The position numbers and the translations under genes were made by a program. Positions 37,158 to 61,962 of a stretch of 64,000 bases of DNA are shown here, in pieces; the first letter of the stretch is position 1; the number at the start of each line of letters is the position of its first letter. The DNA comes from Aurantibacillus circumpalustris (GTDB lineage: Bacteria; Bacteroidota; Bacteroidia; B-17B0; Aurantibacillaceae). The DNA is taken from positions 124,001 to 188,000 of the forward strand of contig NZ_CP121197.1 in the NCBI RefSeq assembly GCF_029625215.1, written 5' to 3'. The notes beneath the pieces are model-generated. The model ran no database searches, was not told the DNA's origin, and saw only the letters and a list, made by a program, of their open reading frames with translations.

Positions 37158-38294
37158 TTAGTTAAATGGATGAGTTGACACCACCTCAATGTTTTTCTTA
37201 ATTAATTTATTTATATCTTTTAAATAATTCATTTCTTCTTTCGCACAAAACGACATTGCTACTCCTGATGCGCCAGCTCTTCCAGTTCTACCAATACGGT
37301 GAACATAAGTTTCAGCTTGCTCAGGAATTTCGTAATTAATTACATGCGATAATTTATCTACATCAATTCCACGAGATGCAATATCTGTGGCTACTAATAT
37401 ACGAATTGTTCTGTTCTTAAAACCTTTTAATGCTCTTTCTCTTGCACCTTGCGATTTATTTCCATGAATTGCCGCTGCAGCAATACCCAAAGTAGCCAAA
37501 TCCTTCACAACCTTATCAGCACCATGTTTGGTACGGGTAAATACTAAAGCATGTTCAATATTATTACTCGATAAAACGTGTTTTAACAAACCGCGTTTAT
37601 TCTCTTTTTTAACATAATAAACCGATTGTTCTACCAAAGTTGTGGTAGAAGATACCGGATTAACAGCCACACTTACCGGATTAACCAAAATGGTATTAGC
37701 CAGTTTCATAATAGCCGGAGCTGCCGTAGCAGAGAAAAATAAAGTCTGACGTTTAGCAGGAATCTTAGTGATGATCTTTTTAATATCATTAATAAAACCC
37801 ATGTCCAACATACGATCTGCTTCGTCTAATACAAAGTGCTCGATGTTGTTTAGTTTTACGTACCCTTGATTCATTAAATCTAATAATCTACCTGGAGTAG
37901 CAACAATTACGTCAACCCCTCTGCGTAAATTATTTACTTGGTTTACCTGAGATACACCACCAAAAATGATGCAATGAGAAATACCTAAGTTTTTACCGTA
38001 TGCTGTAAAGTTTTCACTTATTTGAGAAACTAGTTCGCGGGTTGGAGCAAGGATAAGCGCTTTAACAGTGCCAGGACCTTGTCTTTGATTGCTTCTTTTA
38101 GCGTCTAATAATTGTAAGATTGGAAGAGCAAAAGCAGCCGTCTTACCGGTACCAGTTTGCGCGCAACCAAAAATATCTTTTCCTTCTAAAATATGGGGAA
38201 TCGCTTGTTCTTGAATAGGAGTGGGTTCTGTGTACCCTTTTTTGTCAAGTGCCATGACCAGTGGCTTAATTAGTCTTAAATTTGAAAATGTCAT
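37158..38294 (-). CDS. DEAD-box RNA helicase, RhlE-like
   Basis: A compact 378-residue helicase core without a C-terminal extension. It has a Q motif (GYTEPTPIQEQAIP), motif I CAQTGTGKT, motif Ia PTRELVSQ, DEADRMLDMG, FSATAA and HRIGRTGRAG. The core matches the RhlE branch. A minus-strand TATATTTG box about 140 bases upstream suggests a long leader, as in cold-induced helicase genes. The cold-shock protein gene follows it. Confidence 0.93.
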   Translation of the reverse strand: MTFSNLRLIKPLVMALDKKGYTEPTPIQEQAIPHILEGKDIFGCAQTGTGKTAAFALPILQLLDAKRSNQRQGPGTVKALILAPTRELVSQISENFTAYGKNLGISHCIIFGGVSQVNQVNNLRRGVDVIVATPGRLLDLMNQGYVKLNNIEHFVLDEADRMLDMGFINDIKKIITKIPAKRQTLFFSATAAPAIMKLANTILVNPVSVAVNPVSSTTTLVEQSVYYVKKENKRGLLKHVLSSNNIEHALVFTRTKHGADKVVKDLATLGIAAAAIHGNKSQGARERALKGFKNRTIRILVATDIASRGIDVDKLSHVINYEIPEQAETYVHRIGRTGRAGASGVAMSFCAKEEMNYLKDINKLIKKNIEVVSTHPFN

Positions 38295-38433
38295 TAAATT
38301 GTTTAATTCGTTTATTTTTTATTTTACACGTGATCTTTCATCACATCATTTTAATCTAAGAAAAGTGTAAAATTAATCGAATTGTAATCTGGGTGACACA
38401 AACAAGAAGTATACAATCTTCTAAAGAAGAGGA

Positions 38434-38441
38434 TACAAATA
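38434..38441 (-). promoter_or_regulatory. -7 box of the RhlE-like helicase gene
   Basis: On the minus strand TATATTTG matches TAnnTTTG. It lies 140 bases before the ATG at 38294, which predicts a leader of about 135 nt. No good -33 element is seen. Confidence 0.5.
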
Positions 38442-38537
38442 TACACAACTTATGAACATTAAGCTAGGATTATTTGGACAGAAGTCTAATCAACTGGTAA
38501 TCAGAGTATAATAATACAGAAGAAATTAAAGAAATAG

Positions 38538-38734
38538 GTTCTTTCAGGTTTTTTGGGCGCCCGGGCGGGCTGCTTCGGGCTCCGCTAAGCACAAGCTGGC
38601 TAAACAAGCCAACGGCTTGCTTCCCTGCTCCGGTTTTTTTTAGCGATAAAAGAGGCATCGCTAAAAAAGAACTAAACCCTTTGCATACTTGGCGCGAAAT
38701 CTCCCAATTCCGTCTCAATCCCTCAAGCTAGAAC
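38538..38734 (-). repeat. GC-rich structured dispersed element
   Basis: A roughly 200-base block with GC content far above its surroundings. Read on the minus strand it begins TAGCTTGAGGGATTGAG and passes through CGCGCCAAGTATGCAAAG. It contains a perfect 8-bp hairpin (TTAGCGAT/ATCGCTAA, 38640-38664) and then GCGGAGCCCGAAGCAGCCC and GCCCGGGCGCCC before GAAAGAA. The order resembles a non-coding repeat common in Flavobacteriia, from memory of such genomes. An 82-codon frame inside it is not credible. Confidence 0.6.
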
Positions 38735-39038
38735 CGGCAATCATCTTCGTATATGATTCATCGTTTCCAGCACGGATTTTTAAAAAAATGTTGAATTTAT
38801 TTCTGCATTTGTCTTCCATATTACAAAAGAAGGGCAGTTTTGCGGGTTGGTAGTTTAGGGTAGGCGGTTTATTCAAGAGTTGAGATTTACTAACAACCGA
38901 TTGAAAATGCGTTTTGTAAACATCAGATGTATAACCAACAAAGGGCGACCAATTAACTTTAGTTGGAAATTTGTTTTGGGCGTCAATCGTTAAGTTTAAA
39001 CACACAAAGCAAATCGCTATACAAATTCTGGTTTTCAT
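38715..39038 (-). CDS. Small secreted protein of an uncharacterised Bacteroidota family
   Basis: A signal peptide (MKTRICIAICFVCLNLTIDA) precedes about 87 residues with a conserved-looking core, AKLPFFCNMEDKCRN and FLKIRAGNDESYTKMI. I recall similar LPFFCKME...FRLG proteins in many Bacteroidota, all without a known function. The ATG at 39038 lies one base after the stop of the T9SS protein gene, so the two are coupled. The last residues (GSSLRD) fall in the GC-rich element, which may have replaced the original 3' end. Confidence 0.65.
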   Translation of the reverse strand: MKTRICIAICFVCLNLTIDAQNKFPTKVNWSPFVGYTSDVYKTHFQSVVSKSQLLNKPPTLNYQPAKLPFFCNMEDKCRNKFNIFLKIRAGNDESYTKMIAGSSLRD

Positions 39039-39039
39039 C

Positions 39040-41202
39040 TTAATCCATTTTAATAATTTTCCGAGTGTAAACCACTTCTCCAAAGTTGAGTTGAATAAAA
39101 TAAATTCCTTCTTTAAGATGACTTACGGAAAGTATGCTATTGCCTTTTTGAAAATCTTGCGAAAGAATAAGTTTTCCTAATTGATCGTAGAGTTTCACCA
39201 AAGCAGCGTGTTGCAATTCTAAATGAAGATTTTCATTAAGTGGATTAGGATAAATACGAAAGTTTGAGTTTAAATTTTCATTAATGCCAGTACAATTAGA
39301 ATAAATAACACTAACGGTTTTTGAATTGTTGCATCCTGTTAAAGTATTCGTACCAGCAACTGAAAAAACACTGCTAGCGTTTATTGAAACTGAAATAGTT
39401 GGTGTAAGTTGTGTGGTACTCCAACTATAAGTGGAAGCGCCAGAAACAGTAAGGGTGGCAGATTGCCCCGGACAAACCGTTGCTGGTTGTGCGGTAACAA
39501 CAAGTGAAGGGTTAGCATTAACAGTAAGCACAAAACCTGCTCGCGTTCCATCTGCCGTGCAAGTTGCCGCCGCCGCATAATAGGTATAAGTGCCGGCGCT
39601 TAAGGTAGGGGTAACCAACACAGAGCCTGAACCAATGGAACTGCTTGCTGTGTTAGACGCATACCAGGTAATAGCTGCAGTACTCATGGCTGTAATGCTC
39701 GTATTCTGACCACTACAAATGTTTTTGTTTTGCTCACAAGTATTGCCATAGGGAACATCAAGACAAGTAGACAGTTTACAAACAAATACATCTAAAGTAC
39801 CGTTAGAAGTGAGATTATAAACGGATGGCCCGGGATCAAAATCGGCAGTTAATGAAAAACTGCCTGTAAAATAAACCGAACCTGTATTGTCTAACCATAA
39901 ATCACGAGCACCGTCAAATGAAGGACCTCCAAGTTGTTTAGCATCTATAAAATTACCGGTATCATCCAACTCTAGTAGAAAAATGTCTGTACCACCAACT
40001 GACGTGAGGCTATAAGTGGCTGGCCCGGGATCAAAATCGACACTTAAACTAAACGACCCCATGGCAAATAACGTGTTATTTTTATCGATACAAATTCCAG
40101 TCATAATTTCAGTACTTGGACCACCCACCTGTTTGCCCCATAAAAAATTACCTCCGGCATCCAGTTTAATAACAATAGCATCATTCATACCTAAAGAGTT
40201 GAGTGTGTAACTGCCAATGCCTGGGTCAACATCTACGGTACCTGTAAAAGACCCACCTAAATACAAATTGTTAAGAGTATCCAACGTGAGCAATGACAGT
40301 CCAGTCTTATCAGGTGAAGCGTTTCCAAAAGATACCGCCCAGATGAAATTACTGGCTGGGTCTAGTTTTAGCACGTAAGAGTCACCATAGATCGTAGTGA
40401 TTGCAGTAAGTGAAAAACTTCCGGGCCCAGGATTAAAATCTACGCTCCCTCTGAACAAACCCGTAAGCAAAATATTATTTGCGCTATCAAATTCTATATA
40501 TTCAAAAAAGTCGTGCAAAGATCCACCATAACGTAATGCCCACAATAAAAGCCCATTATTTGAAAATTTACATACAAAAACATCGTTTCCACCATTCGAA
40601 GTCAGTGGAAAATTCCCAGCACCCGGATCAAAATCAACAGTACCCATAAAACTCCCGCAAACAATAAAATTTCCCGCGGCATCGTATTTTATAATGGGGT
40701 TACTAACATATAGGCCTGTAGTATATAAAAAACCGGAAATGAAATTTCCTGAGGGATCTAGTTTATTGTATATGGTTTGTGTTATCCCAGTGGTTCCAAC
40801 CGTATACTGCCCACTACCCGGATCAAGATCAGCTGTTCCAGTTATTATTCCTGCCATCCAAATATTCTGTTGAGGATCAAGACAAAGCGAAGTCAGTTGA
40901 CCACCACCACTTGATTCCAGGTTGAGTTGTACCCCCCAAAGAAAATTTCCTGCAGGATCAAATTTCAAAACATAAAGATCTTGTCCCGCCGCAGTAAGAG
41001 TATATACAGAGGGTCCGGGATCAAAATCCACCGTCCCTGAAAAAGTTCCTGCTGTGTACCAATTTCCACATTGGTCGGTTACAATGGGCCAACCCAAGTC
41101 ATGGTAAGGTCCACCAAAAGAAACGGCTTTGTTTAATACGAGTGGTTGGGAAAAACCAGAAATTGAAATAAGAAGGACTATTAAAGTAAATAGACTTTTC
41201 AT
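39040..41202 (-). CDS. T9SS type-A secreted protein with seven SBBP-like repeats
   Basis: A signal peptide (MKSLFTLIVLLISISGFSQ) is followed by seven repeats of about 55-60 residues. Each has the pattern xVDFDPGxxxYxLTSxG, DxFVxKLDxxGNFLW (for example VDFDPGPSVY, ADLDPGSGQY, VDVDPGIGSY). Seven units suggest a closed seven-bladed beta-propeller. Two Ig-like domains follow (AITWYASNTASS, SYSWSTTQLTPTISV). The C-terminal type-A sorting domain is FRIYPNPLNENLHLEL, LYDQLGKLIL and GIYFIQL. It is predicted to be exported by T9SS and attached to the surface. Ligand unknown. Confidence 0.88.
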   Translation of the reverse strand: MKSLFTLIVLLISISGFSQPLVLNKAVSFGGPYHDLGWPIVTDQCGNWYTAGTFSGTVDFDPGPSVYTLTAAGQDLYVLKFDPAGNFLWGVQLNLESSGGGQLTSLCLDPQQNIWMAGIITGTADLDPGSGQYTVGTTGITQTIYNKLDPSGNFISGFLYTTGLYVSNPIIKYDAAGNFIVCGSFMGTVDFDPGAGNFPLTSNGGNDVFVCKFSNNGLLLWALRYGGSLHDFFEYIEFDSANNILLTGLFRGSVDFNPGPGSFSLTAITTIYGDSYVLKLDPASNFIWAVSFGNASPDKTGLSLLTLDTLNNLYLGGSFTGTVDVDPGIGSYTLNSLGMNDAIVIKLDAGGNFLWGKQVGGPSTEIMTGICIDKNNTLFAMGSFSLSVDFDPGPATYSLTSVGGTDIFLLELDDTGNFIDAKQLGGPSFDGARDLWLDNTGSVYFTGSFSLTADFDPGPSVYNLTSNGTLDVFVCKLSTCLDVPYGNTCEQNKNICSGQNTSITAMSTAAITWYASNTASSSIGSGSVLVTPTLSAGTYTYYAAAATCTADGTRAGFVLTVNANPSLVVTAQPATVCPGQSATLTVSGASTYSWSTTQLTPTISVSINASSVFSVAGTNTLTGCNNSKTVSVIYSNCTGINENLNSNFRIYPNPLNENLHLELQHAALVKLYDQLGKLILSQDFQKGNSILSVSHLKEGIYFIQLNFGEVVYTRKIIKMD

Positions 41203-61584: not shown

Positions 61585-61951
61585 GGGTCCGACCGGATTT
61601 GACAGTAAGCGCATCAGATAAGTAAGCATGTAGAGCGTTGTAAGACGAGCTCTTAAAACTGAACTTTCAAAACTTTTATTTGGCGAAGATAACTCTTACG
61701 CTATGGCTGCTTAATTTAGAATTAAGTGTCCTTTGCTTTCCAGGGAGCTAAACTGCTCTGCGCCTTGGGTAAAGCATCATAAATGTGTAGTTTGTTTTAC
61801 CGACGTTGCTAGGTAAAACAATATTAGCAGCTAAGTTAAAGGTTGGTTTGATATAACGCCTGCCTTTAGCCGACAATCAAGTTATAGCTAAACATTGTAG
61901 AAAGCTTATTTTTTCCTTATTTGGACGAGAGTTCGAATCTCTCCGGATCCA
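61585..61951 (+). ncRNA. ssrA: Transfer-messenger RNA
   Basis: Rescues stalled ribosomes and tags their products. The 5' end GGGTCCGACCGGATTTGACA and 3' end GTTCGAATCTCTCCGGATCC form the tRNA-Ala-like acceptor and T arms. The CCA end is not encoded (ACTG follows). The resume frame at 61682-61714 reads GEDNSYAMAA and then TAA, a degradation tag close to the usual Bacteroidota type. Pseudoknot-like stems follow (for example GGTAAAGC...; GTTTTACC...GGTAAAAC). The length of 367 bases is normal. A terminator lies 12 bases downstream. Confidence 0.96.
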
Positions 61952-61962
61952 CTGATAAATGT

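Follow-up and report, generated by a model that had tools for sequence, protein, structure and literature searches.

The Flavo-1 motif (RF01705), described by Weinberg et al. in 2010 (PMC2864571, in the part of the paper available), is labelled 'Gene; sRNA' in Rfam. A 2022 review lists it under the sRNAs of highest abundance and, in the available passages, names no function for it (PMC9029176). According to the accessible part of a study on F. psychrophilum, Flavo-1 matches lie sense or antisense to transcribed regions alike, and many lie in none (PMC9723704). Other dispersed repeats include the REP sequences and the GTAG and CGTC palindromic repeats, which, as set out in the available sections of PMC3733652, are small, intergenic and structured, are often found past gene ends, and contain G-T pairs in their stems. 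MITEs are likewise known for non-autonomous dispersal.

Here, we describe a structured repeat of the subfamily termed type C in a stretch of 64,000 nucleotides from Aurantibacillus circumpalustris (the window), whose genome is a single contig of 4,604,442 bases. The repeat shares with Flavo-1 the core GGGAY, a short helix, a GA-rich 3x3 loop, a second helix and AGCCCG, together with a terminal CGCCC and intergenic dispersal in Bacteroidota, while type C differs from Flavo-1 in having its own P1 sequence, in mostly lacking a long P2 and in sometimes carrying accessory hairpins. The features listed above for REP, GTAG and CGTC repeats are also shared; however, REP sequences measure 20-40 bp (PMC3733652, available sections), whereas the element is ca. 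80-170 bp long and multi-helix, and it flanked no RAYT gene in the three cases examined. As for MITEs, one genome (G017) carries Flavo-1 inside an inverted-repeat element, but the focal copy shows neither inverted ends nor a target duplication. No description of the element was found in the accessible portions of the literature on Flavo-1, Bacteroidetes MITEs, REP-associated transposases and intergenic palindromes.

Location and composition of the element

The earlier note on this DNA, made from the letters alone, had proposed that positions 38538-38734 form a structured, dispersed element of markedly higher GC content with a perfect 8-bp hairpin and a GCGGAGCCCGAAGCAGCCC core. The GC content of this interval was 50.8%, and that of 38555-38637 was 65.1%, a value reached by a fraction of 7.8e-5 of 83-bp windows, as compared to the average of 35.3% for the whole window. 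The GCGGAGCCCGAAGCAGCCC core was present on the minus strand, and the hairpin proved to be longer than claimed, with 12 perfect pairs on the minus strand and 12-13 pairs in predicted folds. The element itself was real, but its proper limits were narrower than those proposed (38555-38695). Its parts and the adjacent genes are listed below; R2 and A2 are a covariance model and an alignment described in the following sections.

38555..38695, minus strand: whole element, type C, Flavo-1-related; 141 bp; full-length match (1-101) to R2, 63.8 bits
38691..38695, minus strand: 5' arm of the closing stem P0, GCGCC; partner 38557-38561; covariation in relatives
38557..38561, minus strand: 3' arm of the closing stem P0, GGCGC; partner 38691-38695; covariation in relatives
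38683..38685, minus strand: 5' strand of P1b, UGC; partner 38571-38573; focal pairing from the R2 alignment
38571..38573, minus strand: 3' strand of P1b, GCA; partner 38683-38685
38674..38679, minus strand: 5' strand of P1c, GGGUUU; partner 38577-38582; from A2 covariation, the R2 alignment and RNAalifold
38577..38582, minus strand: 3' strand of P1c, GAGCCC; partner 38674-38679
38636..38668, minus strand: distal hairpin, 12 perfect pairs (TTTTTTAGCGAT / ATCGCTAAAAAA), which is the hairpin of the earlier note
38589..38626 (limits approximate), minus strand: accessory hairpin, GCAAGCC..GGCTTG..AGCCAG, a module inserted on the 3' side of P1
38560..38565, minus strand: CCCGGG palindrome between P1 and P0, overlapping the P0 3' arm by two bases
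38715..39083, minus strand: small secreted protein gene, a 122-aa ORF from TTG, 19 bp upstream of the element
37158..38294, minus strand: downstream neighbour, a mechanical ORF which we take from its sequence motifs to be DEAD-box RNA helicase-like

The last two ORFs flank the gap that holds the focal copy. P1b read CAU/GUG in the sister copy L028 and, for example, CAC/GUG in other genomes; the stem of the distal hairpin in L028 was AGGCGAT/ATCGCCT. The CCCGGG palindrome, whose equivalent in L028 is CTCGAG, is possibly a reduced P2. In the focal copy the AGGGAT core was changed to AAGTAT, and this copy looks like a decaying, degenerate member of type C. A search for an intrinsic terminator pattern (GC hairpin followed by a T-run) gave one consensus match, inside the accessory module, against a mean of 0.3 in shuffles.

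The earlier note had also placed the end of the small secreted protein within the element and suggested that a gene terminus had been trimmed or replaced. The protein does end inside the interval first proposed, but its stop codon (38715-38717) lies 19 bp outside the repeat. Homologues of this protein, which probably starts at an ATG inside the 122-aa ORF, were found in nine of 40 relatives besides its own genome. In the four closest of them a conserved block ending in GNDESYxxMI is followed by 3-6 residues (MI-APNNRE, MI-TPNNRE, MI-HNK and MI-TFSTK), and the focal protein ends in MI-AGSSLRD (seven residues). Since the stop codon is outside the element, the conserved block is intact and the tail varies among homologues, the suggestion of a trimmed or replaced gene end was abandoned. 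An 82-aa ORF (38470-38718) runs through the element and had no Pfam match at E ≤ 0.1, which agrees with the remark that such blocks often give spurious frames. Beside the element, the stretch GAGGGATTGAGACGGAATT (window 38706-38724, minus strand), in which the small secreted protein has its stop codon, looked by eye like a 5' strand belonging to a second Flavo-1 in truncated form.

Relationship to Flavo-1

The search of the window with Rfam models returned only the tmRNA gene (61585-61954, RF00023, 120 bits). The focal copy did not reach the gathering cut-off of Flavo-1 (42 bits), and the focal stretch (L013) gave no Flavo-1 match at E ≤ 10. Other Rfam families matched on this stretch at a permissive threshold look like chance and were rejected. 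Two covariance models are compared in what follows: R1, whose training set comprised 31 elements of the Flavo-1 and type B kinds, and R2, built from 20 type C elements, all from other genomes. R2 detected the focal copy with 63.8 bits (E = 6.7e-12 in the window and 4.8e-10 genome-wide), the type C sister L028 with 95.7 bits, and the type B copies L021 and L023 with 41.8 and 37.9 bits. It missed all six Flavo-1 loci tried (L014, L016, L018, L031, L034 and L053) and also L095; in all, it matched four of the 14 loci given. R1 did not detect the focal copy. It matched L028, which lies outside its training set, with 28.6 bits (E = 6.8e-4) in a 30-kb search, and L028 was not among its genome-wide matches, for which the best 150 of 1103 candidates were scored.

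The locus L099, present in neither training set, was detected by both R1 (42.5 bits) and R2 (46.0 bits) and appeared by eye to have P1 of type C together with a long P2 like that of Flavo-1. The P1 helix order with GA-rich internal loops is present in type C, and the focal copy aligned over its full length with two of the three P1a pairs broken. The Flavo-1 copies of the same genome keep the same motif order, for example AAGGAT-GCAGCGG ... TAGCG-AGAGCCTGACCC ... GGGTAACGCCC. Because R2 missed the Flavo-1 loci, type C is linked to Flavo-1 via intermediates, namely L099 and type B. This indirect link, together with a score below Rfam detection, places the focal copy as a relative of Flavo-1 outside RF01705.

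Copies in the genome and accessory modules

When the focal element was used as a blastn query, six further matches were obtained at five places of the 4.6-Mb genome. Its terminal 16-mer, with up to two mismatches, occurred at nine genomic places including the focal one, and the reversed control gave none; the dispersal claimed by the earlier note was thus confirmed. The copies share a frame of which one end carries GCGCC-AGGGAT and the other AGCCCGCCCGGGCGCCC, after which A usually follows; the hairpins of the interior vary, and some copies are truncated. Genome-wide, R1 gave at least 13 matches at E ≤ 10, at least 10 of them at E ≤ 0.001 (best 150 of 1103 candidates scored), and R2 gave at least seven, at least six of them at E ≤ 0.001 (best 150 of 811). 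The union of the two models at E ≤ 0.001 covered at least 13 distinct places, including the focal copy and Flavo-1 copies. These copy numbers are lower bounds because the searches score only the best first-look candidates (25 per genome in the phylum survey described below). Beyond the 13 places, weaker and partial copies exist, and three further copies were recognised by pattern only (1445779, 45839 and 367281). With the Rfam model, four Flavo-1 matches of this genome exceeded the cut-off and a fifth fell slightly short of it.

The match to the accessory module at 38596-38620 was the only one in its own genome at up to three mismatches. Similar modules in other genomes were inserted in the 5' side of P1 (L180), in the 3' side (L204) or in both (L201 and L195), and reversed modules sit inside P2 of the G017 elements. 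A module search in selected loci gave 16 matches, a number that is not genome-wide since the loci were chosen for containing elements; 10 were inside perfectly P0-closed elements, and the remaining six lay by eye in reversed, imperfectly closed or truncated elements.

Covariation supports a conserved fold

Folding of the single focal sequence was unremarkable (z = -1.6 on the minus strand and -1.0 on the plus strand), and the evidence for structure is the covariation among copies. In alignment A1, comprising 31 Flavo-1 and type B sequences with 23 pairs, 90.6% of cells were paired, as against at most 52.0% in slid versions, and 16 pairs showed double changes, one pair being seen as UA, GC, AU and CG. 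The covariation score was 0.339 versus 0.131 in shuffles, and it was reached in none of 500 shuffles, which were uncorrected for relatedness. The weakest helix was P2 (69.1% paired). Alignment A2 contained 20 of 27 type C rows, the five rows whose 5' loop carries a module and the two own-genome rows having been dropped and the range of L187 having been lengthened by 11 bases. Here, 95.2% of cells were paired (at most 59.8% in slid versions) and 10 pairs showed double changes, with 0 of 500 shuffles, again uncorrected for relatedness, reaching the observed value. The count of further pair types was no higher than in shuffles (173/500 for A1 and 407/500 for A2, respectively). RNAalifold, given A2 with no structure, returned the same P0 and inner P1 helices with the distal hairpin shifted by one; of its 29 pairs, 16 showed double changes and one was an unclaimed short local pair.

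As the ends of P0 in A1 were picked by eye, its P0 pairs are not independent, and P0 was tested separately in two sets that had not been selected for it. The first set consisted of 89 of the 149 Rfam-model Flavo-1 matches (those with complete flanks, with one of the 41 from G017), of which 14 were not located. An exact 5-base complement followed by CC was found within 180 bases downstream in 59 of the 75 located matches, as compared to 19.8 on average and at most 32 when the arms were swapped among sequences (2000 trials), and 5.7 and 14 with base shuffling. Some of the 16 misses appeared by eye to pair with another suffix (CCGTT/AACGG, GCCTT/AAGGC and GGGGC/GCCCC). The second set was collected with a pattern fixing the 3' end only and comprised 69 stretches, 63 of them titled Bacteroidota or subgroups; 58 of its 71 distinct matches were tabulated, eight without a GCG arm and five with other arms being dropped. 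Tabulation of the arms GCGCC and GCGCT against R = G and R = A gave 45, 0, 1 and 12 (p = 1.5e-11, uncorrected for relatedness). An association (Y-R, p = 1.8e-4) was also seen within the CYCGRG palindrome, between the P0-paired base and its partner there, and possibly reflects alternative pairing.

These results support a closing stem, P0, in Flavo-1 and its relatives, which is new with respect to the Rfam match structure, where only P1 is paired, without P0 or P2; the original motif drawing may show more. On the folded strand, G-U exceeded A-C cells by 21 to 2 in A2, 13 of the 21 coming from one pair, and in A1 the counts were 9 and 4 without two poor pairs or 10 and 13 with them. This excess slightly favours folding of this strand in single-stranded form. 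After the terminal CGCCC, A occupied positions +1 to +6 in 63, 67, 61, 38, 48 and 55 of 76 other elements, the A-run being forced by the search pattern in the named-genome set. Homologues with covarying pairs thus occur in other Bacteroidota genomes, the earlier note having pointed to similar blocks in intergenic regions of Flavobacteriia, and the searches and covariance models contradict the outcome that it had set against its own proposal, namely a single-copy sequence with neither covariation nor homologues.

Gain, loss and carriage of copies

The L099 site lies between two conserved genes, and both flanks are close together in five relatives. It was empty (no R1 or R2 match at E ≤ 1) in G010, G012, G016 and G022, and occupied by one match in the own genome (G000) and by two R1 matches in G009. 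The two G009 copies differ in subtype from L099 and sit, by eye, in a ca. 325-bp tandem duplication that includes the upstream gene end (L258, G009:C244:28600-29600). The site shows gain or loss of the element within a genus, though, as the gaps have diverged, not an exact junction. At the focal site, the gene order was not kept in the homologues examined, and no empty counterpart was obtained.

G017 had 41 Flavo-1 matches, and 20 copies (loci L060-L079) were examined in detail. Flavo-1 was carried in an element of 228-360 bp with inverted ends and 8-bp target duplications: 16 of the 20 copies had ca. 70 bp of upstream sequence in common, which ended at a sharp boundary, 14 had both inverted ends (GGATCAATCGGAATTGTTGGGGA / GGGTCAAGCGGAAAAGCTGGGGA type), and three (L060, L078 and L079) had neither. 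The flanking 8-mers of the 14 two-ended copies were equal at seven or more of eight positions in 10 cases, four of which were identical, as against 0 of 182 mismatched pairs. The inverted-end pattern occurred 61 times in G017 and its reversed control 0 times. Owing to these inverted ends and duplications, Flavo-1 can ride in a MITE in G017. A search of G017 found no autonomous partner with such ends. Several G017 contigs end near the composite inverted-repeat element. Among 143 P0-bounded copies from other loci, there was no excess of target duplications (14 with at least 4 bp; null mean 11.4, maximum 19), and the focal copy showed no inverted ends by eye. The exact 19-mer core had no match in viral contigs, and blastn with one type C query gave no match in plasmid and phage collections.

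Two Y1 (RAYT-like) genes are present in the own genome (L029, G000:C1:517567-517911, and L030, G000:C1:271253-271597). They are flanked by their own short palindromes (AAAACCGTTTTAACGGTTTA and GCTCCTACGGAGC) and probably form REP/RAYT pairs with them; R1 found no element beside either gene. A third Y1 gene (L053 in G038, 500-1630) is bracketed by TTGAAGTCCTTCGGACTTC-type repeats, and a Flavo-1 element starts ca. 180 bp from the Y1 match. Among these few cases, no RAYT gene (0 of 3) was flanked by the element, and other repeats flank all three.

Gene context and transcription

Gene context was derived from mechanical ORFs, and the background gaps include element-bearing ones. Writing the element as E between arrows for the neighbouring genes, 39 elements from the own genome and relatives were distributed as >E> 14, >E< 11, <E< 7 and <E> 3, with four undefined or inside an ORF. 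In the own genome the upstream gene was on the same strand in 14 of 17 elements with a defined upstream gene, while the tandem copies of relatives were seven sense and five antisense. The 50 classified elements of named genomes comprised 18 convergent (>E<), 28 tandem (14 >E> and 14 <E<) and four divergent (<E>) cases; this set also held 10 undefined elements and three inside ORFs, and nine without a 5' arm were skipped. Of the 148 background gaps in these loci, taken at lengths of 100-800 bp, 85 were tandem, 32 divergent and 31 convergent. Divergent gaps were therefore under-represented and convergent gaps over-represented, and the sense bias of the own genome was absent from the named set. 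The rarity in divergent gaps and the inconsistent strand preference argue against a dedicated sRNA or riboswitch, and the placement is more in line with a tolerated repeat than with a regulator. No promoter-like site was found in 38290-38760 with the sigma-70 consensus, the only one used and a weak test in Bacteroidota.

Interpretation and alternative explanations

The element is probably a non-autonomous, dispersed, structured mobile repeat, a diverged relative of Flavo-1 that is recognised by its fold and mobilised in trans. The 'miniature mobile or RNA element' of the earlier note is hence refined to a Flavo-1-related structured repeat behaving as a mobile element. The folded strand, minus at the focal site, is closed by P0 (mostly GCGNN/NNCGC), and P1 forms a long interrupted hairpin with GA-rich internal loops, to which many relatives add P2. 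The element ends in CGCCC, usually followed by A-rich sequence, and accessory hairpins can insert at loop positions with the frame preserved. Intergenic gaps gain or lose copies, and those between divergent genes seldom do so. The mobilising machinery may recognise the single-strand fold, and a transposase or other factor encoded elsewhere may act on it in trans, the focal copy presumably having moved in this way. No mobiliser was found, and the three Y1 genes examined are flanked by other repeats. A broader and rather doubtful proposal is that Flavo-1 represents one branch of a large Bacteroidota superfamily of P0-closed two- or three-helix junctions, which would move as single strands without target duplication, be recognised by their fold, evolve through insertion of entire hairpin modules into one another's loops and depend on an unrecognised structure-dependent mobiliser.

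A functional 3'-UTR RNA, whose fold at the end of the upstream mRNA blocks 3' exonucleases or attenuates read-through and is kept by selection, would agree with the same-strand upstream gene at the focal site and in most elements of the own genome, and the predominance of G-U over A-C in A2 fits a single-stranded fold such as RNA. However, such an RNA is an unlikely explanation: tandem copies are evenly split between sense and antisense in the named genomes and nearly so in relatives, the A1 counts of G-U and A-C are only 9 to 4 without the two poor pairs and 10 to 13 with them, F. psychrophilum Flavo-1 occurs in either orientation with many copies untranscribed (PMC9723704, accessible part), and four relatives lack the element in the only conserved gap examined. 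The same transcript pattern, the large number of divergent copies in single genomes, which reaches 41 in G017, and the failure of the sigma-70 search to find a promoter-like site all weigh against a dedicated trans-acting small RNA, as which Rfam types Flavo-1; conserved structure and the Rfam label speak for it, and we give it very little credence.

Movement by a RAYT (Y1 transposase), as for a REP-type repeat, would account for a single-strand fold, for the lack of a target-duplication excess and for positions mostly away from promoters, and Y1 genes do occur in the genome and, in L053, near a Flavo-1 element. Yet the element is larger and multi-helix, the short palindromes that flank all three Y1 genes examined are of other kinds, and R1 finds nothing beside the two in the own genome, which leaves this explanation improbable. 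The inverted ends and 8-bp duplications around Flavo-1 in G017 resemble those of an ordinary MITE, which a DDE transposase would move via terminal inverted repeats. The MITE reading stands for the G017 composite only, as the focal copy has no inverted ends or duplications; three of the 20 G017 copies are without either end and P0-bounded copies show no duplication excess, and for the element at large it is highly improbable.

On this evidence, Flavo-1 can be re-read as one member of a family of mobile, structured repeats. The closing stem P0 is added to its description, Flavo-1 is linked to subfamilies absent from the Rfam matches obtained here, and one site is seen in empty and occupied states. 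The nature of Flavo-1 thereby becomes testable, and the annotation of its copies as sRNA genes or short proteins needs rethinking.

Host range

Across the phylum, R1 matched 22 of 148 genomes, the own genome included, with the best 25 candidates scored per genome. The Rfam model of Flavo-1 matched 25 of 41 genomes, again including the own genome, and gave the 149 matches tallied above. Among pattern matches outside Bacteroidota, L170, L216 and L219 have no such arm and look like chance, and two spirochaete-titled contigs were found by pattern, one with a GCGCC arm (L225) and one with a related end (L218).
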